From positions 62,001-126,000 of the forward strand of contig NZ_MASR01000003.1 in NCBI RefSeq assembly GCF_001758195.1: a DNA stretch of 64,000 nucleotides. Reading direction: 5' to 3'. Numbering within the stretch: the first letter of the stretch is position 1; every line of letters begins with the position of its first letter. Positions 50,953 to 62,427 of this stretch are shown in pieces. This DNA is from Pseudohongiella acticola. Lineage in GTDB: Bacteria > Pseudomonadota > Gammaproteobacteria > Pseudomonadales > Pseudohongiellaceae. The position numbers and the translations under genes are program-made. Below the pieces are notes generated by a model. The model had not been told where the DNA came from. It made no database searches and was given only the letters and a program-made list of their open reading frames with translations.

Positions 50953-53532
50953 ATGCGTGCTTTAACCAAACGTACCCTGTGGTACGGCTGCATTATTTTA
51001 TTGGGATTTCTCAGCGCCCTGCCTTCTTTCCTGCCTGGCGAAGACCGGCCGTATCTGCCGGACTGGTATGACAGCAATCAGTTCAGCCTGGGGCTGGACC
51101 TGCGTGGTGGCTCTCATCTGCTGCTGGCTGTGGACATGGAGGAGCTGCTGCAAAACGAGAATCAGCAAATGGCAGATGTACTCACCGACAATCTGCGTCA
51201 GGCTGATATTCGTTACCTGAAACCCAGAGTAGACCAGGGCGGCATCCACATTAGCCTGCGCGACGCCGGCGACATGGACGTACTGACCCAGGTAGCCCGT
51301 GACACCCTGGCTGAGAGCCAGAGCGGTGCCCCGGCGTATACCCTTGCTCGTGACAACAATACGCTTACGCTAAGCATGACCCAGGTACATCGCGAGGCGC
51401 TGCAGCAGGATGCGGTGACGCAAAGCCTGGATATTGTCCACCGGCGCCTGGATGAAACCGGCATGGTGGAGCCCAGCATTACCCGACAGGGCCAGGACAG
51501 CATTGTTGTGCAGTTACCGGGCGTGAGTGATCCACAACGAGTAAAAGAGCTGCTGGGAACCACCGCCCAGATGAACTTTCACTGGCTGGCGGACAGCACA
51601 TCCACCGACGTAATCGAGTTGCGAGGCCTGGAGGATCGCCCGGAGGACGGCCCAGAAACGGACCAGAGCCCAAGCCAGGTGTACCGTCTGGAGCGGAAAA
51701 TTGCCATGGAAGGGCGGCACGTACGCAATGCCAACATGGTGTTACAACAGCAGACAGGCCAGCCGGTAGTCAATTTTGTGCTCGACAAAACCGGCGGTCG
51801 CCAGTTTGGCGACATGACCCAGGCCAACATTGGGCGGGCATTGGCGGTGGTGCTTGATGACAAAGTGATTACTGCGCCGGTCATCCGCAGCGCCATCACT
51901 ACCGGTAGCGGAGAAATCAGCGGAGGCTTTAGCGCCGTAGACGCCACCGACCTGGCCATGCTGTTGCGTGCAGGGGCCCTGCCGGCGGCGCTTGATGTAA
52001 TCGAAGAGCGTAGTGTCGGGCCCAGCCTGGGCAGCGACTCCATCAACATGGGGCTGCTCGCTGGTCTTGTTGGTGCCGCGCTGGTATTGGCCTTTATGGT
52101 GACTGCGTACGGCAGTTGGGGGCTGATCGCCTGGCTCAGCCTGAGTGTCAATGTGGGGCTGATCTTTGGTGTGCTCAGTCTGCTTGGCGCCACCCTGACA
52201 CTGCCCGGTATTGCCGGCCTCATACTGGTCATGGGCATGGCAGTGGACGCCAATATCCTGATCAATGAACGCATCCGGGATGAATTGCGCCAGGGCAAAA
52301 CGCCATGGTTGTCATTGGACAATGGTTTCCGCAAAGCCTATGGCACCATTATCGATTCCAATATCACAACACTGATCGCCATCAGCCTTCTGTTTACCAT
52401 GGGTTCAGGTCCGGTGCGCGGATTTGCGGTCACCATGGGCATCGGTCTGTTGACGTCGTTGTTCACCTCGGTGGCGTTCACTCGCGTGCTGATGGAGTGG
52501 CGCATACGCCTGTCCGGCAAGAAAACGCTGTCTATAACCGGTCTGCCGTTGTTTGACCGGTTGGCTAACAAATTCAGCAGCGGCAAACAGGTCATTAATT
52601 TCATGCGTGCCAGTGCCGCCGGTCTGGTGATATCTGCGATTCTGTCAGTGGCGTCAATTGCCCTCCTGGTATATCCCGGCCTGGATTTTGGCATTGATTT
52701 CAGCGGGGGCGCCCTGGTCGAAATCAAGGCACCTGACACGTCAATCGAACAGTTACGCAGCAGCCTTGTCAATGCCGGACTGCCTGATATTTCAGTCCAG
52801 GAAACTGCCAGTGCCGGCGGCAACGCCATCGCCAGCGACACCTATCAATTGCGCCAGGCGATTCAGGAAGATGCCGACAACAGCCAGGTGATGAACAACA
52901 TGCGTGCCGCCGTGTTGCAGGCTGCGCCAGATGCCGAGTTCCAGCGTACCGACATGGTGGGCCCACGTGTCAGTGGTGATTTTGCCGACATGAGCATACT
53001 CGCAGTCCTGCTTGCCGGCGCAGGCATGCTGTTCTATTTATGGTATCGCTTCGAAAACCACTTCGCCGTGGCAGCGGTTATCACCATTGCCCTGGACCTG
53101 ACCAAAACTCTGGGTTTCTTTGCGCTTAGCGGAGTGGAATTCAACCTGACAGCAGTGGCCGCACTGCTTGCCCTGATAGGGTACTCGGTCAATGACAAAG
53201 TCGTGGTTTTTGACCGGATTCGGGAAAATCTGCATGCCAAACCCGATCAGGATCTGGCGAAACTGGTCGACCGGAGTATCAGTGCCACCTTGACCCGAAC
53301 CGTGTTCACGTCCGGCAGCACGCTTGTCGCTATCCTGCCCATGGCCGTGGCCGGGGGCAGCGCGGTGTCCAGCTTTGCCTTGCCCATGTTGTTCGGCATC
53401 ATCATCAGTACCAACTCGTCGATTTTTATCGCGGCACCCATTGTGCTGAGGCTGGGCCGACGGCGGGCCAATCGCGGACTGGGGCAGCTACATGCGCCTG
53501 TGTCGACTGACACGGTCACGACACGGCCCTGA
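50953..53532 (+). CDS. Fused protein translocase subunits SecD and SecF
   Basis: An 859-residue fusion. The SecD half has FSLGLDLRGGSHLLLAVD, the periplasmic P1 region and six membrane segments (LVGAALVLAFMVTAYG, GIAGLILVMGMAVDANILINERI). The SecF half starts near residue 560 with PGLDFGIDFSGGALVEI and ends with segments such as IGYSVNDKVVVFDRIREN. SecDF uses the proton gradient to complete export through SecYEG. Many Gammaproteobacteria keep separate yajC-secD-secF genes, so this could be a second or divergent copy. GAGGACTTT precedes the ATG. It converges with the EAL gene, 34 bases apart. Confidence 0.92.
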   Translation: MRALTKRTLWYGCIILLGFLSALPSFLPGEDRPYLPDWYDSNQFSLGLDLRGGSHLLLAVDMEELLQNENQQMADVLTDNLRQADIRYLKPRVDQGGIHISLRDAGDMDVLTQVARDTLAESQSGAPAYTLARDNNTLTLSMTQVHREALQQDAVTQSLDIVHRRLDETGMVEPSITRQGQDSIVVQLPGVSDPQRVKELLGTTAQMNFHWLADSTSTDVIELRGLEDRPEDGPETDQSPSQVYRLERKIAMEGRHVRNANMVLQQQTGQPVVNFVLDKTGGRQFGDMTQANIGRALAVVLDDKVITAPVIRSAITTGSGEISGGFSAVDATDLAMLLRAGALPAALDVIEERSVGPSLGSDSINMGLLAGLVGAALVLAFMVTAYGSWGLIAWLSLSVNVGLIFGVLSLLGATLTLPGIAGLILVMGMAVDANILINERIRDELRQGKTPWLSLDNGFRKAYGTIIDSNITTLIAISLLFTMGSGPVRGFAVTMGIGLLTSLFTSVAFTRVLMEWRIRLSGKKTLSITGLPLFDRLANKFSSGKQVINFMRASAAGLVISAILSVASIALLVYPGLDFGIDFSGGALVEIKAPDTSIEQLRSSLVNAGLPDISVQETASAGGNAIASDTYQLRQAIQEDADNSQVMNNMRAAVLQAAPDAEFQRTDMVGPRVSGDFADMSILAVLLAGAGMLFYLWYRFENHFAVAAVITIALDLTKTLGFFALSGVEFNLTAVAALLALIGYSVNDKVVVFDRIRENLHAKPDQDLAKLVDRSISATLTRTVFTSGSTLVAILPMAVAGGSAVSSFALPMLFGIIISTNSSIFIAAPIVLRLGRRRANRGLGQLHAPVSTDTVTTRP

Positions 53533-53566: not shown

Positions 53567-55162
53567 TCAGACAGTCAAAGGCGCCGCAGGTTTGCAGAAA
53601 TCTCTGATAAACCTGCGTGCGCGACAGGGCCTGCCGTAAAGCCAGCCCTGCGCGCGACTGACACCCTTCTCCAGCAGTTTCACCGCCTGCTCAGATTCCT
53701 CTACACCCTCCGCTATCACCTGCACATTCAACTTTTCCGCCAGTTCAATCAGGTGAAAAACAAGGTTGCTCCGAACATCATCGACACTGATCGTTTCAAC
53801 GAACAGCCGATCGAGTTTCAGGAAGTCGAATTCATAGCGCTGCAGATAGGCAAAATTTGAGAATCCGGTGCCAAAATCGTCAATCGCCACTTTAAACCCG
53901 AGACGCCTGACTTCCCGAATGAGTTCTCGTGAGTGCTCATTGTCGACGAAGCTGCTTTCGGTAACTTCCAACATAAAACGGTCGCCTGCCAGGCCAAATG
54001 CTTCCAGCATATGTCGCAGCCTCTCCGTCAACCCGGGTACGGTCAGGTCGTGACCACTCAGGTTGATGGACAGATAGAAGTCTTCGGAGTCCTGCATTAC
54101 TTTTGACATATCGCGAGCAGCCAGACGAAAAACCTCGTCAGTCAACAATGTCATTACGCCGTTACTCTCAGCCAGAGGAATAAATATGTCGGGCGCGATC
54201 ACTTCGCCATTCCTGCGCCAACGTAACAATGCTTCAGCACCAATACAGCGCTGAGTTTCAATATCCAGGATAGGTTGATAATCGAGGTAGAACTCGTGTT
54301 GCCTGATGGCCATCTGAAGGTCTTTACTGATCGAACGACGTCGTGAAAGCAGACGAGTCACCAATAAAAAAATCACCACACTACCGAATAGGGTAAACGG
54401 AAAAACCCGGAGCAATTGACCCCACAGGCCAGCGTTAACCGTATTCGCCGGGGTGACAACAATCGCACCGAGCGTGAAATCATTGAAGTCGGAATCAAAA
54501 TGACCCACCAGATCACCGGCTACAAACGCGCCCGAGGTGCGACCACTGATTTCATCGGCGAGGGCTTGATTAGGTACCAGATGGCCAAACTCCGCCAGTC
54601 GTTGTGTACCGCTTTCAACGCGCTCAAATACTACGACTCCGAACTGTGTCGGGTCGATTCCAAAAAACACTTCATCTGCGTCCAGGGCAACGCCAAATCC
54701 GGTATCCGCCTGTGCGATCAGTAATGGTTGAGCTTGCGGCGCCCACGGCAACGTGATGTCCGCCCAGGCCCGGGTGCCCTGAAGGTTGCGACCTGGTGCG
54801 CTCCCCAGAAAAAAGGGCGGATCGTGCACGTCGATGCTCGAGCACAGGACCTGACCGTCACGGATATACAGCGCACTTTGAATATAGCGATAGGACAGTG
54901 CACTGATTCGCATGGCGCGAAGTGCGTTGTCTGAGCACGGGGCATCAATGAAAGCGGACAGTTGCTCAACGACAGCTCGATGCTGTCCACCAATCTGTAA
55001 TGCTCTTGCCAGAACACTGCTGGCAGTACTCTGCAGATACTCACGCTGCTGGGAAATAGCATTATCGCGGGCATACCAGATGCCCGCGAATAATGGTGCC
55101 AGAAAGGCTATTGCACCCACTAACAGAATCAGCAGGTTTCCTGCATTATTGATTCTCGGCAC
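53567..55162 (-). CDS. CSS-motif cyclic-di-GMP phosphodiesterase (EAL domain)
   Basis: A 531-residue inner-membrane protein. Residues 11-30 are a membrane segment, and the periplasmic sensor has C76 and the C107-S-S motif (VLCSSID), typical of CSS-domain phosphodiesterases tuned by the disulfide state of the periplasm. A second membrane segment (FTLFGSVVIFLLVTRLL, ~255) precedes the EAL domain, which is intact: EALLRW, LSINLSG, LEVTESS, IDDFGTGFS, AEGVEE. The family hydrolyses c-di-GMP, which favours motility. The GTG start at 55162 has GGAG upstream. It follows the PstS-like gene by 58 bases. Confidence 0.9.
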   Translation of the reverse strand: MPRINNAGNLLILLVGAIAFLAPLFAGIWYARDNAISQQREYLQSTASSVLARALQIGGQHRAVVEQLSAFIDAPCSDNALRAMRISALSYRYIQSALYIRDGQVLCSSIDVHDPPFFLGSAPGRNLQGTRAWADITLPWAPQAQPLLIAQADTGFGVALDADEVFFGIDPTQFGVVVFERVESGTQRLAEFGHLVPNQALADEISGRTSGAFVAGDLVGHFDSDFNDFTLGAIVVTPANTVNAGLWGQLLRVFPFTLFGSVVIFLLVTRLLSRRRSISKDLQMAIRQHEFYLDYQPILDIETQRCIGAEALLRWRRNGEVIAPDIFIPLAESNGVMTLLTDEVFRLAARDMSKVMQDSEDFYLSINLSGHDLTVPGLTERLRHMLEAFGLAGDRFMLEVTESSFVDNEHSRELIREVRRLGFKVAIDDFGTGFSNFAYLQRYEFDFLKLDRLFVETISVDDVRSNLVFHLIELAEKLNVQVIAEGVEESEQAVKLLEKGVSRAQGWLYGRPCRARRFIRDFCKPAAPLTV

Positions 55163-55220
55163 TGCAATCTCCGGTTCAACAGCGCTTAGTGTAGACCACC
55201 GTGGCGCTCAGGAGAAGTAC

Positions 55221-55616
55221 TTACTGGAGTGTCAGTATCACTTTGACCGAGTCGTCAACACTGCCAGCATCGACATAACCAATGGCATCCGGATTGGATG
55301 CGACATGGCTTAGCATGGCTGCTTCGTTCGCCACCTCAGCAGGTGGCGTGCCTTTGCCAGTGAACACGAGTTTTGACCAATGCGCCTTTAACTGCGCCGA
55401 AGCCCTGCCTGCGCCTTTTTCGTCAAATTCGGAACGCATGGCAAGCCCTTCCTGCAGATTAACCGCGGTCAAGGCTGACGAGCGCCCCGTGTAGAGCCTG
55501 TTAAGCTCATCAACATCAATTTCAGCAGAGCTGGACGGATGCACAATCACAGCGATGTCAGCGTACGCAGGCCATGCCATGGTCAGACACAGCAGGACAA
55601 GAATTTTATTCAACAT
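55221..55616 (-). CDS. Small exported PstS-like protein
   Basis: A 131-residue protein. Its signal peptide is residues 1-19 (KILVLLCLTMAWPAYAD). The mature part resembles the first half of phosphate-binding PstS-like proteins (IAVIVHPSSSAEIDVDELNRLYTGRSS, then the LFTGKGTPPAEVANEAAMLSHVASNPDAIGYVD region), too short for a full two-lobed binding protein. Such short proteins often pair with a porin in marine Gammaproteobacteria. The ATG at 55616 follows GAGGAGAAGCAA; the gene begins 10 bases after the porin stop. Anion binding is plausible, not shown. Confidence 0.78.
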   Translation of the reverse strand: MLNKILVLLCLTMAWPAYADIAVIVHPSSSAEIDVDELNRLYTGRSSALTAVNLQEGLAMRSEFDEKGAGRASAQLKAHWSKLVFTGKGTPPAEVANEAAMLSHVASNPDAIGYVDAGSVDDSVKVILTLQ

Positions 55617-55626
55617 TTGCTTCTCC

Positions 55627-56778
55627 TCAGAATACCAGATCAACGCCAACAGACAGTAAAGACCTGCGATTGCCGGTCAATTGATTGTCCTGTTCCGTAT
55701 ATTGCGCCTTGAACGCAGCCGACGGATGGAAGTCATAACGGAAACCCGCATTCCAGGTTTCAGTTTCCGATTTCTGACTGTCTACCAGTGCCTTTACCGG
55801 AACAAACACTTGAGCTGGCAAAACTGTCTGGAAACCGGCATAAATGTCCGTCTGTGCTTCATTGTCATCCTTCTCGTAAGACAGGTATGGCGTGAGGCTG
55901 CCAAATCGTCGACCAACCGACAGGTAGTAGCTATCCTGTTCCGCAACGAAGCTGTTTTCGACCTCAACCCTGGTAAACTCGGACACGATAATCCAGTTGG
56001 CGCTGTCATAGGTCAAACCGAAACCAAGGAAACTGGAATCCTCTTCCTGAATATCAAGTCCGGAAACAAGGCCTGACAATCCTGCCTGGTTCAGCGCCGC
56101 AAACAGATTGCCAAACGAGAAACCGGGCGCCAGCTCAACGGGATCAGTCTGGAACGTTGTTTCGCCAACCAGATAAGCCACTCGACCGCTCAGTGAACCC
56201 TGGCTCAATGTCCATGAGGCACCGGTAATACTGTCAATCTTGGCGTCGATCTCTGTGCCAGAAAACTGGATTTCGGAATCATAATTGCCGAACACAAATT
56301 GCAGGCTCGACTCGAAGCCACCAATCTGCCCGGTACGGTACAGTGTCAGCCCTTCAATATTCTCAAAGCCCAGTCCATAGACGCTCTGCGGTGGTCGCAT
56401 CCAGTCATAAGCGTAACCAACGTCAAGGAAATCGGAGTACTGGAAAAAAGGTGTGCGCAGGCGGCCGGCACTGATACTTGTCTGGTCGTCAAAGTCATAG
56501 GTCAGGAATGCCCATTCGAAGTCGACATCAAAGTCATCAACGCCACGTCCCAGCAACTGGCCGGTGACCGACAGGTCGTCGCCCAGATCTGACTGTACCT
56601 GAATAGCAAACAGGCTTTCGTTTTTCATGTCGAAGCTGTCATCGTAGCCGTACAGACTATCGTTGCTACCCGTGGTTGCGCCTGCTTTGATTGATGCAAA
56701 GCCGTTAATGTTGACGTCTGCAAATGACGCACTCGACATCGCAGCGGCGAGTGCCGCCATACCCAAATACTTAACCAT
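55627..56778 (-). CDS. Outer-membrane porin-like protein
   Basis: A 383-residue exported protein with signal peptide (GMAALAAAMSSASFAD) and a repeated pattern of beta strands, ending VGVDLVF, the usual C-terminal phenylalanine. Stretches such as NINGFASIKAGATT and SAGRLRTPFFQYSD recall the phosphate-selective or general porin class. GAGGGGAAA precedes the ATG. It lies upstream of the PstS-like gene and downstream of the chemoreceptor gene on the same strand. A solute-uptake role is inferred from its family style and pairing. Confidence 0.82.
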   Translation of the reverse strand: MVKYLGMAALAAAMSSASFADVNINGFASIKAGATTGSNDSLYGYDDSFDMKNESLFAIQVQSDLGDDLSVTGQLLGRGVDDFDVDFEWAFLTYDFDDQTSISAGRLRTPFFQYSDFLDVGYAYDWMRPPQSVYGLGFENIEGLTLYRTGQIGGFESSLQFVFGNYDSEIQFSGTEIDAKIDSITGASWTLSQGSLSGRVAYLVGETTFQTDPVELAPGFSFGNLFAALNQAGLSGLVSGLDIQEEDSSFLGFGLTYDSANWIIVSEFTRVEVENSFVAEQDSYYLSVGRRFGSLTPYLSYEKDDNEAQTDIYAGFQTVLPAQVFVPVKALVDSQKSETETWNAGFRYDFHPSAAFKAQYTEQDNQLTGNRRSLLSVGVDLVF

Positions 56779-56838
56779 TTTCCCCTCTTCTTTCGTGTAG
56801 TCCCACCCCAGGAATTGAGGTGTTCATCATGGATAATC

Positions 56839-58450
56839 TTACGTTTCAAACTTCGAGCTGACTGATACCAGTGAATCAGACAGGCTCTTGAGCTTGTCTG
56901 AAATGTCGTACACAGATACCTGAATACTTTTTGCTTCAGTAAATGACGAGGTCATTTTGCTGGTATTGGCGACAATCTGTTCCGTTGCCATTGATTGCTG
57001 CTCCGTTGCTGCAGCAATCTGCGTATTCAACAGACTGATCTGCTCAATTTCGTTATTGATTTTCAGGATGGTATCTCCTGCATCACTGGCAAGTGCCTCT
57101 GACTCCTCCGCGACGCCGACAGCTACTCGCATCATGCCTACAGCCGATGAAACGTTGTCGTTTAACTGCTTGAGCACGTCCTGAATCAGGGTTACCGAGT
57201 TCGCTGTTTTCAGTGACAGACTTCTGACTTCGTCAGCAACGACGGAGAAGCCCCGGCCCTGTTCACCGGCTCGCGCGGCTTCAATCGCCGCATTCAATGC
57301 CAACAGATTGGTCTGGTCAGCAATGTCATTGATGCTTTTCAGGATTTCTGTGGCATCCTTGGTGCGAACGGCCAGATCCGAGATAACGTTCTGTGTCTGG
57401 CGTATCTCATTGGACAGTTTTTTGGAATAGGAAACTACCGTCGACGTTTTCTCCTGGCCAGTCTGAGACAGGTCGTGTCCACTTTCGGCATTTCTGGCAG
57501 CGTTGCTGGCCGACTGGCTGATTTCACGAACCGACAACTGCAGCTCAGACATGCTCTGGGTGACAATCTGCGAGTCCGATGTCTGTTCGGTGGTCATCTC
57601 GTCCAGACGATCCATACCACGCGTCAGATTGTGAGCGCTGGCCGTTAATGGCTCGATAATACTGGTCAGGTCATTAAAGGAAGTCTGCAACATCGCAATG
57701 AACTGATTGAACTCAGTGGCAACAACTCCCAGCTCATCGTTGCCGAAGACAGGCAGCCGACTAGCCAGGCTGCCCTTGCCGCTGGCAAGCTCGGCAAGCG
57801 ACTCGCCCAGCCCTCTGGCTGAGGCACTGATGCGGTGCGCTGTATAATGTCCGATACTGATGGTCAGCAACAACAATACGCCGCCCAGCACCAGCATAAA
57901 AACCAGGGCAAAATTCATATTCTCCGACAGGGCGTCAATCGCTTGGGAAAACTGTTCATCGGCGCGTGTTTCAAAGTCTTCAAACTGTTGACTCAACTGT
58001 TCAAACAGTTCTGTTTTGGTTGCGATATCCGATTGAATGGAGTTAAAGTCAACGATGCCGTCGATAAAATCCTGAGCGATCGCCGCGGATATTTCTGCGT
58101 ACCGTGCAGTGTCATCCTGAAGCGTTCGAAGCTGGCTTGCGTTGCGCGGATTCAGTGTGATCAGGCGATCGATGGTAGCCACGAGCGCGTCACTATTCTG
58201 CTGAGCAGTCGCCAACAGGTCAGGGTCGGACAAGGTAACAGCCTGGGTGAAAAACTCATCGGCGGCGCGAAACTCGGTTCTGACCTGAGAGGCCAGTTTT
58301 GGAGGTTTCGTACATGAAATCGCCCATTTCCTGAGTTGTCATGTTGTTTCTGGCAGTAAAAAACACACTGACGGCAACGACGGTCGTAAAGGAAATGACG
58401 GCCAGACCAAGTACGAGCCAGATTTTCAGCACGATCGATAGATTCTTCAT
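56839..58450 (-). pseudogene. Methyl-accepting chemotaxis protein with a one-base frameshift near the N-terminus
   Basis: Translation from the ATG at 58450 gives MKNLSIVLKIWLVLGLAV, a first membrane segment and ~20 further residues, then goes out of frame. At a four-base A-run (58297-58300, T-run on plus) the natural reading shifts; removing one A yields ...[18 protein letters not shown] and continues to 56839 through a second membrane segment, HAMP and the signalling hairpin ([22 protein letters not shown]). The restored protein would be 536 residues. The ORF from 58233 alone lacks the first membrane segment. The break could be a real mutation, a sequencing error or a phase-variable site. 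Confidence 0.85.
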
Positions 58451-58490
58451 AAAATTGGCTAAATATTATCTGAATATCGGTAATAGGAAG

Positions 58491-58510
58491 TGTCAGTGTG
58501 TACGCTGACA
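58491..58510. repeat. Short hairpin in the chemoreceptor/motA intergenic region
   Basis: TGTCAGTG pairs with CGCTGACA (one G-T pair) around TGTA. It lies 41 bases before the chemoreceptor start on the minus strand and 240 bases before motA. The 300-base gap holds no gene; this hairpin and the FliA promoter are what I can see in it, plus GC-rich short stems in 58526-58575. Confidence 0.5.
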
Positions 58511-58663
58511 AACAACACCTGTCAGGCCGGAAAATAAAGCCCGGCAAGGCTACTGCAGATGCCGAATGGAGGCAGATTCATCCACCCCGCTCCACTCATT
58601 ACGACCGGATCGCGGAAAACTTGAGCCATTATCAGAAAAATACTACGCAGGTCGCCAGCCAGC

Positions 58664-58690
58664 TAAAGATTGTCAGCAAACCGCCGATAG
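58664..58690 (+). promoter_or_regulatory. FliA (sigma-28) promoter of motAB
   Basis: TAAAGATT (58664-58671), 11 bases, then GCCGATAG (58683-58690). The E. coli flagellar sigma consensus is TAAAGTTT-N11-GCCGATAA; two positions differ, one in each element. It ends 60 bases before the motA ATG, a usual leader length. It implies motAB is transcribed with late flagellar genes. Confidence 0.85.
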
Positions 58691-58750
58691 TATTTGCGTT
58701 AAAGCCTTAACTTTTAGTACCAAACTCACGCCAGACATACAGGACACCGC

Positions 58751-59560
58751 ATGAATCCATCCACCATCATTGGCATGCTCGCCAGTATTGCGCTGTTGGG
58801 CAGTGTTCTGTTCTTCTCTGCGGAGTCCGAGTCCAGTTTTCTCAACCTGCCCGGTCTGGCGATTGTCATTACCGGCACCATGGCAGCCACCTTCATCAGT
58901 TACCCCCTGAAAGAGGTCGTTCGTGTTTTCGGACTGGTGGCGCTGGTTTTTCGTCGCGAAAATACCTATTCCCGCGATGACATCAAAGAGATGGTGCAGG
59001 TATCACGGCTCTGGTTTCAGGGCAATATCAAGGATGTTGACGACGCGCTGGCAAAAATCAAAAACCCATTCCTGCGCACCGGCATTCAACTGGTCATCGC
59101 CAATACCGATGAACAGGAAATTGTCGACACACTGCGCTGGCGCATCGCCCGCGTCAAGGCGCGCGAACGGGCAGAGGCACACATATTCCGCACCATGTCG
59201 ACCTACGCCGCCGCGTTCGGCATGATTGGCACACTGGTGGGTCTGGTCAATATGCTGGCAGTCATGGACTCTGGCAGTCTCGACCTGATTGGCCCACAAA
59301 TGGCGGTGGCGCTGCTGACGACCTTCTACGGCATTCTGCTGGGCAACGTTTTCCTGCAACCGATCGCGGTTAAACTTGAAAGGCGCACTGAGGAGCGACT
59401 GATCGCCATGAACATGGTACTGGAAGGCATTGCCATGATGAGCAAGCGGCGGCCGCCTTCATTCATTGAAGATACGCTAAAATCATTTGCCGCCACCTAC
59501 CAGGATGAAATACGCGACAAAGGCATGCCGCCCATGAAGGGAGCTGTGCGTGGAAAATAG
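58751..59560 (+). CDS. motA: Flagellar motor stator protein MotA
   Basis: A 269-residue protein with four membrane segments (SIALLGSVLFF, LPGLAIVITGTMAATF, AAFGMIGTLVGLVNML, LLTTFYGILLGNVFL) and the long charged cytoplasmic loop after segment 2 (SRDDIKEMVQVSRLW, FLRTGIQLVIANTDEQEI). MotA surrounds MotB to form the ion-driven stator. The ATG at 58751 follows CAGGACACCGC. Its end overlaps motB by 11 bases. The conductance ion (proton or sodium) cannot be decided from this alone. A FliA promoter lies 60 bases upstream. Confidence 0.9.
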   Translation: MNPSTIIGMLASIALLGSVLFFSAESESSFLNLPGLAIVITGTMAATFISYPLKEVVRVFGLVALVFRRENTYSRDDIKEMVQVSRLWFQGNIKDVDDALAKIKNPFLRTGIQLVIANTDEQEIVDTLRWRIARVKARERAEAHIFRTMSTYAAAFGMIGTLVGLVNMLAVMDSGSLDLIGPQMAVALLTTFYGILLGNVFLQPIAVKLERRTEERLIAMNMVLEGIAMMSKRRPPSFIEDTLKSFAATYQDEIRDKGMPPMKGAVRGK

Positions 59561-60341
59561 CCGTTATGCCGTCGACATGATCGGCGACGACTCCGGATCA
59601 TCCGACAGCACTGACAATAGCTGGATGCTCAGCTACCTGGACGTGCTGACCTTGCTGATCGCTTTTTTTGTGCTGCTGCTGGCAATGAGCGAGCCCAAGA
59701 CCGACGATGACGACACGCCTGATGCGGTATCACAGACCGGATCCGCCGGCTCGGACGCAGGGGCAACTGCACAGACGCCACTGGATGAAACCGGTGGCGT
59801 GATGCCTGGCGGCATCGGTGTACTACCCGAATACAACAGCCTGCTTCAGGGAAGATCGGGAGAGTCAGCACCGGATGCTGAGGACGAAGGTACCGATGAC
59901 GACGCTGACGAACGCTTCGGCGACCTGGAAAACAGCCTGAATTCACTGTCGCTGCAGGGCGTTGATGCCGAACCCGGACGCGAGGGCCTGACCTTGCGCA
60001 TCTCGGACAATTTATTGTTCGCCAGTGGGCAGGCAGAGCTGAGGTATGAGGGCATGGTGCTGATCAGTCAGTTGACCGGGTTTCTCAATGCCTTTGAGGG
60101 TGAGATCTCCATCGAGGGGCATACTGATAACATCCCTATCAATACGCCACAGTTTCCGTCCAACTGGGAACTGTCCAGCGATCGCGCCATTTCAGTGCTG
60201 CGTTACCTGGAGTATGACGGCATAGACGCAACCCGCATGCGCGCAGTGGGTTATGCCGATACCCGGCCACTGCAGGCCAACGACACGCCTGAAAGCCGCG
60301 CTGGCAACCGTCGTGTAGAGTTGATTCTGCGTGAGCCCTGA
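59550..60341 (+). CDS. motB: Flagellar motor stator protein MotB
   Basis: A 263-residue protein beginning with GTG at 59550 (AAGGGAG upstream) inside the motA end. One membrane segment carries the essential aspartate, D31 in SYLDVLTLLIAFF. A long acidic linker (DDDDTPDAV, EDEGTDDDADERFGDLE) precedes the OmpA-like peptidoglycan-binding domain (EGHTDNIPINT, PSNWELSSDRAISVLRYL, NRRVELIL). It anchors the stator to the wall. The linker is unusually long and acidic compared with E. coli MotB, resembling sodium-type PomB-like partners only loosely. Confidence 0.9.
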   Translation: MENSRYAVDMIGDDSGSSDSTDNSWMLSYLDVLTLLIAFFVLLLAMSEPKTDDDDTPDAVSQTGSAGSDAGATAQTPLDETGGVMPGGIGVLPEYNSLLQGRSGESAPDAEDEGTDDDADERFGDLENSLNSLSLQGVDAEPGREGLTLRISDNLLFASGQAELRYEGMVLISQLTGFLNAFEGEISIEGHTDNIPINTPQFPSNWELSSDRAISVLRYLEYDGIDATRMRAVGYADTRPLQANDTPESRAGNRRVELILREP

Positions 60342-61338: not shown

Positions 61339-62427
61339 TTAATTGTCAGCTGCCATCAGCAGACTGATTTCATCCAGCTGGCGGTGCAGCGTATCAGAAT
61401 CGACACTACGCACAGTAGCGTGTCCGACCTTGCGGCCGTCCTTGAAGGCCTTGCCGTAGTCATGCACATGGCAGTCAGCAATGGCTGCGAGCCTGGCTAT
61501 TTCTGGCACACAGCCAATAAAGTTAACCATGGCGCTTTCACCAAGCTTCCTGGTGGAACCCAAGGGTAAACCGGTAATCGCCCGCAAGTGATTTTCGAAT
61601 TGACTGCACTCGGCCCCTTCAATTGTCCAGTGCCCGGAGTTATGTACCCTGGGCGCAATCTCATTGGCTTTGAGTCCGCCATCGACTTCAAAAAATTCGA
61701 ACGCCATCACCCCGACATAGTCCAGATGCTCAAGCACTGCCGAGGTATACTGCTCAGCCAATGCCTGCAAGGGATGCTGCTCACTGGCAATGGATAAGCG
61801 CAATATACCGTCATTATGGGTATTGTGGACCAGTGGATAGAACCGGCAGGCGCCATCGCGGCCACGCACTGCAATCAATGACACTTCGCCGCTGAATTCA
61901 ACAAAGTCTTCCAGAATACAGGGCACACTGCCCAGCTCAGCAAATGCGGCGCTGACATCAACCGGAGCACGCAGTACCTTTTGACCCTTGCCATCGTAAC
62001 CCAGCGTGCGCGTCTTCAACACAGCCGGCAGTCCGATGCTGGCGACGGCCTGTTCAAGCTCAGCCTGCGAGTCAACCGCAGCGTAAGGTGCCACCGGCAC
62101 CTGAAGATTGCGAAACAGGTTTTTCTCAAGCAGACGGTCACGGGCAATACGCAAGGATTCGGCACACGGATAGACCGGTACAAATTGCGACAGAAAGGCC
62201 ACGGTATCGGCGGGTACACTCTCGAACTCGAATGTCACCATGTCGACCTGATCGGCCAATTGCCGCAGATGCTCATGATCGTGGTAGTCCGCGTGGATAT
62301 GTTCACCCAGCATGGCGGCGCAGGCATCCTGCGCCGGATCCAGAAAAACAAATTTCATACCCAGTGGAGTGCCAGCCAACGCCAACATACGTCCCAGCTG
62401 GCCACCACCGATTACGCCAATTTTCAT
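61339..62427 (-). CDS. purK: N5-carboxyaminoimidazole ribonucleotide synthase
   Basis: A 362-residue ATP-grasp enzyme starting MKIGVIGGGQLGRMLALAG. It shows the ATP-grasp centre (PAVLKTRTLGYDGKGQ), LEDFVEFSGEVS, EIAPRVHNSGHWTIEGA and the closing HDYGKAFKDGRKVGHATV. It uses ATP and bicarbonate to carboxylate AIR in purine synthesis. The gene follows purE by 6 bases on the same strand. Bicarbonate use connects loosely with the SbtA gene upstream. Confidence 0.95.
   Translation of the reverse strand: MKIGVIGGGQLGRMLALAGTPLGMKFVFLDPAQDACAAMLGEHIHADYHDHEHLRQLADQVDMVTFEFESVPADTVAFLSQFVPVYPCAESLRIARDRLLEKNLFRNLQVPVAPYAAVDSQAELEQAVASIGLPAVLKTRTLGYDGKGQKVLRAPVDVSAAFAELGSVPCILEDFVEFSGEVSLIAVRGRDGACRFYPLVHNTHNDGILRLSIASEQHPLQALAEQYTSAVLEHLDYVGVMAFEFFEVDGGLKANEIAPRVHNSGHWTIEGAECSQFENHLRAITGLPLGSTRKLGESAMVNFIGCVPEIARLAAIADCHVHDYGKAFKDGRKVGHATVRSVDSDTLHRQLDEISLLMAADN

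Follow-up and report, generated by a model that had tools for sequence, protein, structure and literature searches.

A recurrent trio of a porin, a one-lobe PstS-like protein and a signalling protein in Pseudohongiella acticola and other Gammaproteobacteria suggests a sensory route across the cell envelope

Which of several closely packed genes belong together is the question raised by a locus of Pseudohongiella acticola. In the analysed stretch of 64,000 nucleotides (positions 62,001 to 126,000 of contig NZ_MASR01000003.1, assembly GCF_001758195.1; hereafter the window, in whose numbering all positions are given), genes of a chemoreceptor, a porin, a short PstS-like protein and a CSS-motif EAL phosphodiesterase of cyclic di-GMP (c-di-GMP) follow one another on the minus strand with intergenic gaps of 60, 10 and 58 bases. 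In this genome they lie between secDF and the divergent motAB (Table 1). An earlier reading of the bare sequence (the original prediction) had taken all of these genes, motAB included, for one coupled unit. Its positions of the porin, PstS-like, EAL, motA and motB genes and the three gaps agree with the sequence and the list of open reading frames (ORFs). As to the coupling, the porin, the PstS-like protein and a signalling protein are conserved together, whereas the CSS-EAL and motAB genes are not conserved members. That the first three belong together is well supported, because their neighbourhood is conserved, its order and output change, one sensor type recurs beside them and FliA-like sites precede 7 of 24 receptor units of the class sample, though none of the 24 in a second, named set. 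With moderate confidence we favour the explanation that they form a three-layer sensory module, in which the porin and the one-lobe PstS-like protein (half-PstS) relay a cue to the inner-membrane signalling protein.

The linkage was analysed with a profile (A1) built from 18 PstS-like proteins and searched at E ≤ 1e-8 against an even draw of 370 gammaproteobacterial genomes with a completeness of 90% or more. The PstS-like protein was found in 96 of them; plasmid records gave betaproteobacterial matches too (Caballeronia, Massilia and Ideonella, in the best 15 of 20 records). The best listed place was fetched in 90 of the 96 genomes, together with 10 extra places, leaving out the window's own genome and five genomes with no listed place (G070, G078, G141, G175 and G265). 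Three loci with no PstS-like ORF after ORF selection (L200, L259, L262) were dropped, giving 87 usable loci. Porin and signalling labels were assigned from phmmer matches, profile matches and simple motifs, and 15 signalling proteins were checked against Pfam. Within two genes in a same-strand run, a porin was present at 75 of the 87 loci, a signalling gene at 44 and both at 41. Signalling genes account for 43 of 95 non-porin neighbours, but for 4 of 149 genes at a distance of five positions or more (p 8e-17). Counted on either strand, a signalling gene lies within three genes at 61 of the 87 loci, and 68 of 357 neighbours are signalling genes versus 3 of 111 distant genes (p 3e-6). The first outputs after the Pfam check are 21 receptors, 18 GGDEF/EAL proteins and 5 kinases (23, 17 and 4 by script labels), L217 having been relabelled as a GGDEF-EAL protein with dCache and L238 as a kinase-receiver protein. 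The porin labels miss some barrels: L253 has Porin_O_P over its cut-off, and seven others are barrel-like (signal peptide, final F).

A second, named set of 78 loci was chosen on PstS similarity alone and includes two sister genomes, G007 and G009; a porin adjoins at 76 of these loci, and a receptor is found within three genes at 40. Window-type receptors follow the porin and PstS genes (order porin-PstS-receptor) in Arsukibacterium, Alishewanella and several Rheinheimera, and the full-length ones score 460-675 bits to the G009 receptor. Gene order varies among 91 units (the 87 loci plus L128, L129, L131 and L137). With P for porin, S for PstS-like, M for receptor, C for c-di-GMP enzyme and H for kinase, the orders PSM, MPS, SPM, MSP, PSC, SPC, CPS, SCP, SPH and others were seen, besides units of PS (24), SP (9) and a lone S (10). 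A PstS tree was made from 99 rows; 49 of its 96 inner branches have support under 80, and outputs were labelled by script. On it the output label changes at least 27 times versus a shuffled mean of 47.2, a value as low in 0 of 200 shuffles; 8 output changes are counted when only rows with an output are kept. Since the changes are few compared with shuffles, yet several, PstS subtypes appear to follow output types while the outputs have switched repeatedly.

A periplasmic sensor of about 150 residues is common to 21 neighbouring receptors and one kinase-receiver protein, and it has no Pfam match in those scanned (L188, L204, L238 and the sister receptor L129). Sensors of the window type, from G009 and 20 receptors of named loci with both sisters included, are homologous to it (99.8%, E 2e-28) over 204 columns, which take in the flanking membrane segments. 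The sensor profile gave 31 matches at E ≤ 1e-30 in the 370 genomes, and 27 of these are no more than 5 kb from a listed PstS-like place. The profile itself had been built from 18 of the matches; 9 of the other 13 are PstS-linked, these nine including the window itself and G075, which nearly duplicates a training row. A random gene would be this near a PstS-like place in an estimated less than 1% of cases, given the copy number and the genome size. Matches at E 1e-30 to 1e-6 are mixed. The sensor of the G009 orthologue is modelled as a four-helix bundle (pLDDT 92.4). Its nearest folds are all weak matches (E 0.037 or more); among them are a kinase sensor (4k0d), Tar (the aspartate receptor), MCP2201 and, from XylFII-LytS, the LytS part. 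Other linked clusters have dCache_3 on GGDEF(-EAL) outputs (L248, over cut-off) and on kinase L256 (below cut-off), or dCache_1 on receptor L253, GGDEF-EAL protein L217 and kinase L250 (by blast cluster).

Promoters were scanned with the FliA (sigma-28) consensus. Seven of the 24 receptor-labelled units have a site with at most 3 mismatches upstream; none of the 17 c-di-GMP units or of the 45 output-free units has one, and shuffles give 0-1. These groups cover 24+17+45 of the 91 units, the other 5 being kinase units or having less than 201 bases of upstream DNA; the kinase unit L238 is counted among the 24 and is without such a site. Two of the seven positive units are the sisters, with a 3-mismatch site before the receptor, while L214 (1 mismatch) and L230 (3) have the porin as first gene. 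Judged from these sites, the porin and PstS-like genes of FliA-positive species would be co-made with flagella. The FliA promoter that the original prediction placed at the diverging motAB is confirmed as a site with 1 mismatch to the IUPAC pattern. It is kept in 9 same-genus relatives, whose sites upstream of motA have 2-4 mismatches to the strict consensus, equalled in at most 1 of 100 shuffles. The scan of the whole window gave 4 matches at ≤3 mismatches versus 0.84 expected.

The identity of the PstS-like protein was examined by sequence and by predicted structure. The Pfam scan assigned it to no family at E ≤ 0.01, a match to PBP_like_2 lying below its cut-off, and TIGR02136 (PstS) reached 23.1 bits versus a cut-off of 206.6, over positions 118-227 of 295. 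In the predicted structure (pLDDT 92.9) the protein matches a single lobe of the phosphate-binding proteins 1twy, 4exl and 4gd5. In the best PstS chains, which have 241-262 residues, about 120-134 columns are matched, which amounts to one lobe, and it is to this lobe that the sequence profile aligns; the two-lobe PstS fold is absent from the model of this 131-residue protein. At the phosphate-site loop, GSGTRDAF of 4gd5 stands against EGLAMRSEF in the window, so that the SGT motif, which belongs to the phosphate site of PstS in lobe II, is not kept. The name PstS therefore says little about the ligand, phosphate is not implied, and phosphate sensing as the name suggests was rejected for the window protein. 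Plasmid records annotate it mainly as a phosphate ABC (ATP-binding cassette) transporter substrate-binding protein or as hypothetical. A PstS-like domain fused to a signalling output was also considered and is not borne out by the eight PstS-like ORFs longer than 230 amino acids, of which four are DnaJ-like fusions and three (L200, L270 and L280) were apparently called too long. In the DnaJ fusions (L278:5989-7716, L279:5986-7674, L245:4657-6360 and L277:5995-8016; DnaJ over the Pfam cut-off in three of four) the half-PstS domain lies behind DnaJ, an apparent single membrane segment and a long linker, and a porin gene is next.

Under the sensory-module explanation, a solute would enter the periplasm via the porin, and the secreted one-lobe PstS-like protein would receive this cue, or the state of the porin. 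The half-PstS would then dock on the periplasmic domain of the inner-membrane signalling protein and act on its sensor. The partner here would be the chemoreceptor with the four-helix-bundle sensor; elsewhere it would be a GGDEF/EAL protein or a histidine kinase. Direct contact between half-PstS and receptor, the part played by the porin and the ligand are what we infer; the relay is modelled by analogy on CtpL-PstS and on binding-protein-driven kinases. A broader version is offered only tentatively and is unlikely: the porin and half-PstS could be the outer head of a general trans-envelope kit of Gammaproteobacteria, plugging into exchangeable outputs, with the porin itself a signalling subunit. 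If true, this would be a signalling class started by pores, not by lipoproteins or TonB receptors.

Several observations weigh against a sensory module. No signalling gene is present within three genes at 26 of the 87 loci, and 12 of the 87 are without a labelled porin within two genes, some of these having other barrel-like proteins; the porin count also leans on a profile built mostly from porin-linked members. Signalling neighbours outnumber expectation from distant genes less clearly in the named set (52 of 309 versus 1 of 43 distant genes, p 0.011), and none of its 24 receptor units has a FliA-like site. The best such site of the window receptor has 5 mismatches and is equalled by 6 of 100 shuffles. 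Genome G055, from the same taxonomic order as the window, has 14 PstS-like genes, and a labelled signalling gene lies within two genes of 2 of the 11 annotated ones. The pair of Rheinheimera nanhaiensis, flanked by what were read as fdx and ndk, has no signalling gene beside it. Among the 31 strong sensor matches there are four where the DNA fetched contains no PstS-like gene; of these, L366 does have a porin immediately upstream, L365 and L368 lack both genes, and at L367 the contig breaks off shortly before the start of the receptor gene. In the last of the eight long ORFs, L271, Pfam matches nothing along an extended N-terminal stretch; it is a weak profile match, and its locus is of the PhoR type.

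The rival that survives best, though we consider it rather improbable, is that the porin and half-PstS are an uptake or porin-gating pair, and that the signalling genes are co-regulated with it and respond to the same solute through sensors of their own. The greater constancy of the pair compared with the signalling gene (75 versus 44 of 87) and the loci devoid of signalling genes speak for it. Against it, no ABC permease was found by Pfam among the nine window proteins scanned around the porin-PstS pair, the same sensor type recurs on receptors beside the pair, and PstS subtypes track the output type.

The membership of motAB was examined in 14 relatives, of which 12 have a close motA, and at 9 same-genus motAB loci. 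Porin and PstS-like genes occur together in the sisters G007 and G009 (75-85% identity to the window; porin orthologues 75-76%), and G008 has a distant porin-PstS-like pair. In both sisters the cluster consists of receptor, porin and PstS only, on a contig other than that of motAB and with no EAL gene behind. None of the 9 motAB loci has a porin, PstS-like, chemoreceptor or EAL match beside motAB, and motAB was therefore rejected as a member of the unit; in G014 (L125) a GGDEF-motif protein adjoins motB. In G003 and G013 the cassette is lacking and secDF directly abuts motA, while in the window the four-gene block sits between secDF and the motA promoter, so that it was either inserted here or lost there. 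The link of the cassette to flagellar motor genes is thus local to this genome. The check proposed with the original prediction, a conserved neighbourhood in relatives, accordingly came out divided: receptor, porin and PstS are kept in the two sisters, and porin, PstS-like protein and a signalling protein recur across the class; the links to EAL and motAB are not kept. In G020, from another genus of the same family, a GGDEF-PstS-porin unit (L126:4813-11700) and motA are about 2.7 kb apart; the identity of its porin is only 31%. This second unit of the kind near motAB has a superoxide-dismutase-like gene (by eye) on its other side. The window motA as the sole stator gene was dropped, PF01618 being present at 7 places in the genome.

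The EAL gene is likewise no conserved member, as it is missing from the sisters' cluster and its CSS part is unmatched in other porin-PstS loci. Its best homologue in the two sisters is 54% identical, lies about 15-17 kb from the cluster and adjoins another receptor without a match to the shared four-helix sensor. The N-terminal 262 residues (the CSS part) do match both of these sister proteins; the ORFs at the other porin-PstS loci that were fetched gave no match, and Pfam found no CSS domain in six neighbouring c-di-GMP proteins scanned (L248, L126, L208, L133, L217 and L203). The protein resembles phosphodiesterases of the PdeC type in having CSS and EAL domains, with 217 bits versus a cut-off of 461 for NF007839 (PdeC), and it is a neighbour of the conserved unit. 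Probably it is either independent of the unit or an output added in this lineage; it could be a new output or a passenger. At L375 and L376 the sisters' EAL homologues are convergent to the other chemoreceptor, near a GGDEF/EAL-type protein.

The chemoreceptor gene, which the original prediction had read as intact from 58450, is broken as assembled. The frame from this ATG stops after 64 codons, and a 464-codon ORF in a second frame covers the remainder; with the G009 receptor as query, tblastn matches two frames of the window, 87% and 86% identical. Both sister genomes have intact copies, and their A-run has a length one base different from that in the window. The 464-codon remainder is constrained relative to G009, with a nonsynonymous divergence (dN) of about 0.09 and a synonymous one (dS) of about 2, the latter near saturation. 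As it is still under constraint, the frameshift is either recent or an assembly error; mutation and assembly error are both possible. The module may be silent for taxis in the window strain, its frame being broken as assembled.

These results bear on a second rival, according to which the genes are chance neighbours, motAB and EAL having no functional tie to the rest. The loss of motAB and EAL linkage in the relatives examined, the abutting of secDF and motA in G003 and G013 and the frameshifted receptor all fit this explanation. It suits motAB and EAL, but not the receptor-porin-PstS trio, which recurs, differently arranged, in Arsukibacterium, Alishewanella and several Rheinheimera, and for the locus as a whole it is improbable.

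The sensory module can be compared with known systems. In Pseudomonas aeruginosa, according to passages of PMC4926252, PstS loaded with phosphate (Pi) binds the chemoreceptor CtpL and so stimulates it indirectly; as here, a PstS-type periplasmic protein is found beside a chemoreceptor. Unlike here, that PstS is full-length and within an ABC transporter, the CtpL sensor is described as being of another type, and the same passages name no porin partner. They also describe Trg, Tar, Tap and Tsr, enterobacterial receptors driven also by binding proteins, as having four-helix sensors of 150-160 residues, and because of this the four-helix sensor fits a relay. In XylFII-LytS, TorT-TorS and LuxP-LuxQ, too, a signalling protein of the inner membrane is driven at its sensor domain by a periplasmic binding protein (passages of PMC6321045). 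The LytS sensor is itself among the fold matches of the sister receptor sensor, XylFII-LytS being a binding protein on a kinase sensor. Binding proteins of the XylFII, TorT and LuxP type have two lobes, unlike half-PstS, and these units are not known to include an outer-membrane pore. YfiBNR, as described in PMC4655355 and PMC4887326, likewise has outer-membrane, periplasmic and inner-membrane c-di-GMP parts; it differs in that its outer part is a lipoprotein and not a porin, its periplasmic part is YfiR and its sole output enzyme is YfiN. The unit works like a binding-protein-driven receptor system, yet it stands outside the PstS family and outside YfiBNR, its outer-membrane part being Porin_4 and not a YfiB-type lipoprotein.

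An envelope sensor of the YfiBNR kind, in which the porin would be sensed and half-PstS would be held by it and released onto the inner-membrane protein when the envelope changes, is very improbable: the three-part layout, the c-di-GMP outputs at 17 of 44 loci (18 after the Pfam check of L217) and the sequestration of YfiR by YfiB at the outer membrane (PMC4655355) would suit it, but by their assignments the porin and PstS-like protein are not of the families of YfiB (an outer-membrane lipoprotein) and YfiR, and chemoreceptors, the most frequent output, are better suited to a solute cue than to envelope stress.

The half-PstS is encoded in about a quarter of the sampled gammaproteobacterial genomes, mostly beside porins. 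Should it be an adaptor between a pore and chemotaxis or c-di-GMP, many GGDEF/EAL proteins and orphan chemoreceptors would gain a partner and a route to their ligand, and a misleading phosphate-transport annotation would be corrected. We know of no description of a porin-half-PstS-signalling unit. Searches of the open-access literature that required all terms together found no description of a unit of porin, PstS-like or binding protein and chemoreceptor or c-di-GMP protein, and the passages of PMC5343319 and PMC2536512 describe none. The recurring trio suggests a little-noticed route by which an outside chemical cue could cross both membranes to swimming or c-di-GMP.

The window proteins, with the coordinates of their genes collected in Table 1, were assigned to families by Pfam and NCBIfam, and the families originally predicted were retained for the porin, the EAL and CSS domains, the chemoreceptor domains and MotAB; the PstS-like protein passes no family cut-off. 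The porin reaches 47 bits for Porin_4 versus a cut-off of 27. The EAL protein scores 56.6 bits for CSS-motif (PF12792; cut-off 23) and 216.5 bits for EAL (PF00563; cut-off 31.3); the CSS cysteines, candidates for redox control, are present in its sequence. In the chemoreceptor, MCPsignal (126.1 bits) and HAMP (33.2 bits) are both above their cut-offs, and the motA and motB products match MotA_ExbB and MotB_plug plus OmpA, respectively. SecD and SecF are fused as one protein of 859 amino acids (window 50953-53532).

Table 1. Features of the locus in the P. acticola window
Feature	Position	Strand	Basis
CSS-motif EAL c-di-GMP phosphodiesterase; local neighbour, not a conserved member	53567..55162	-	Pfam
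PstS-like protein, 131 amino acids, signal-peptide-like start (by eye), corresponding to the domain II lobe of PstS	55221..55616	-	
Outer-membrane porin, Porin_4 (PF13609)	55627..56778	-	Pfam
Chemoreceptor, open part (464 codons): rest of periplasmic sensor, second transmembrane segment, HAMP, MCPsignal	56839..58233	-	ORF list, Pfam, tblastn
Chemoreceptor, 5' part with ATG at 58450: first transmembrane segment and start of sensor	58234..58450	-	tblastn with G009 receptor
A-run, frameshift site, one-base length difference versus the two sisters	58297..58300	- (A-run read on +)	comparison with sisters
FliA (sigma-28)-like promoter of motA	58664..58690	+	consensus match
motA; neighbour, not a conserved unit member	58751..59560	+	
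motB; neighbour, not a conserved unit member	59550..60341	+	

Some further features of the fetched loci were recorded. A porin adjoins 10 of the 11 annotated PstS-like genes of G055 (L132-L134, L146-L151, L156). Porin-PstS pairs flanked by fdx, at the end of an isc operon, and ndk (names from sequence) are found at L324:3369-5982 and L354, with no signalling genes. A distant PstS-like subtype lies beside barrel-like proteins at L254, L264, L266, L268, L269 and L272, with a kinase gene and mostly a regulator gene divergent; three of these barrel-like proteins were scanned, with no Pfam porin over cut-off. Downstream of the porin-PstS genes at L227, L232 and L213, periplasmic proteins resembling Sel1-repeat proteins (by eye) are encoded.

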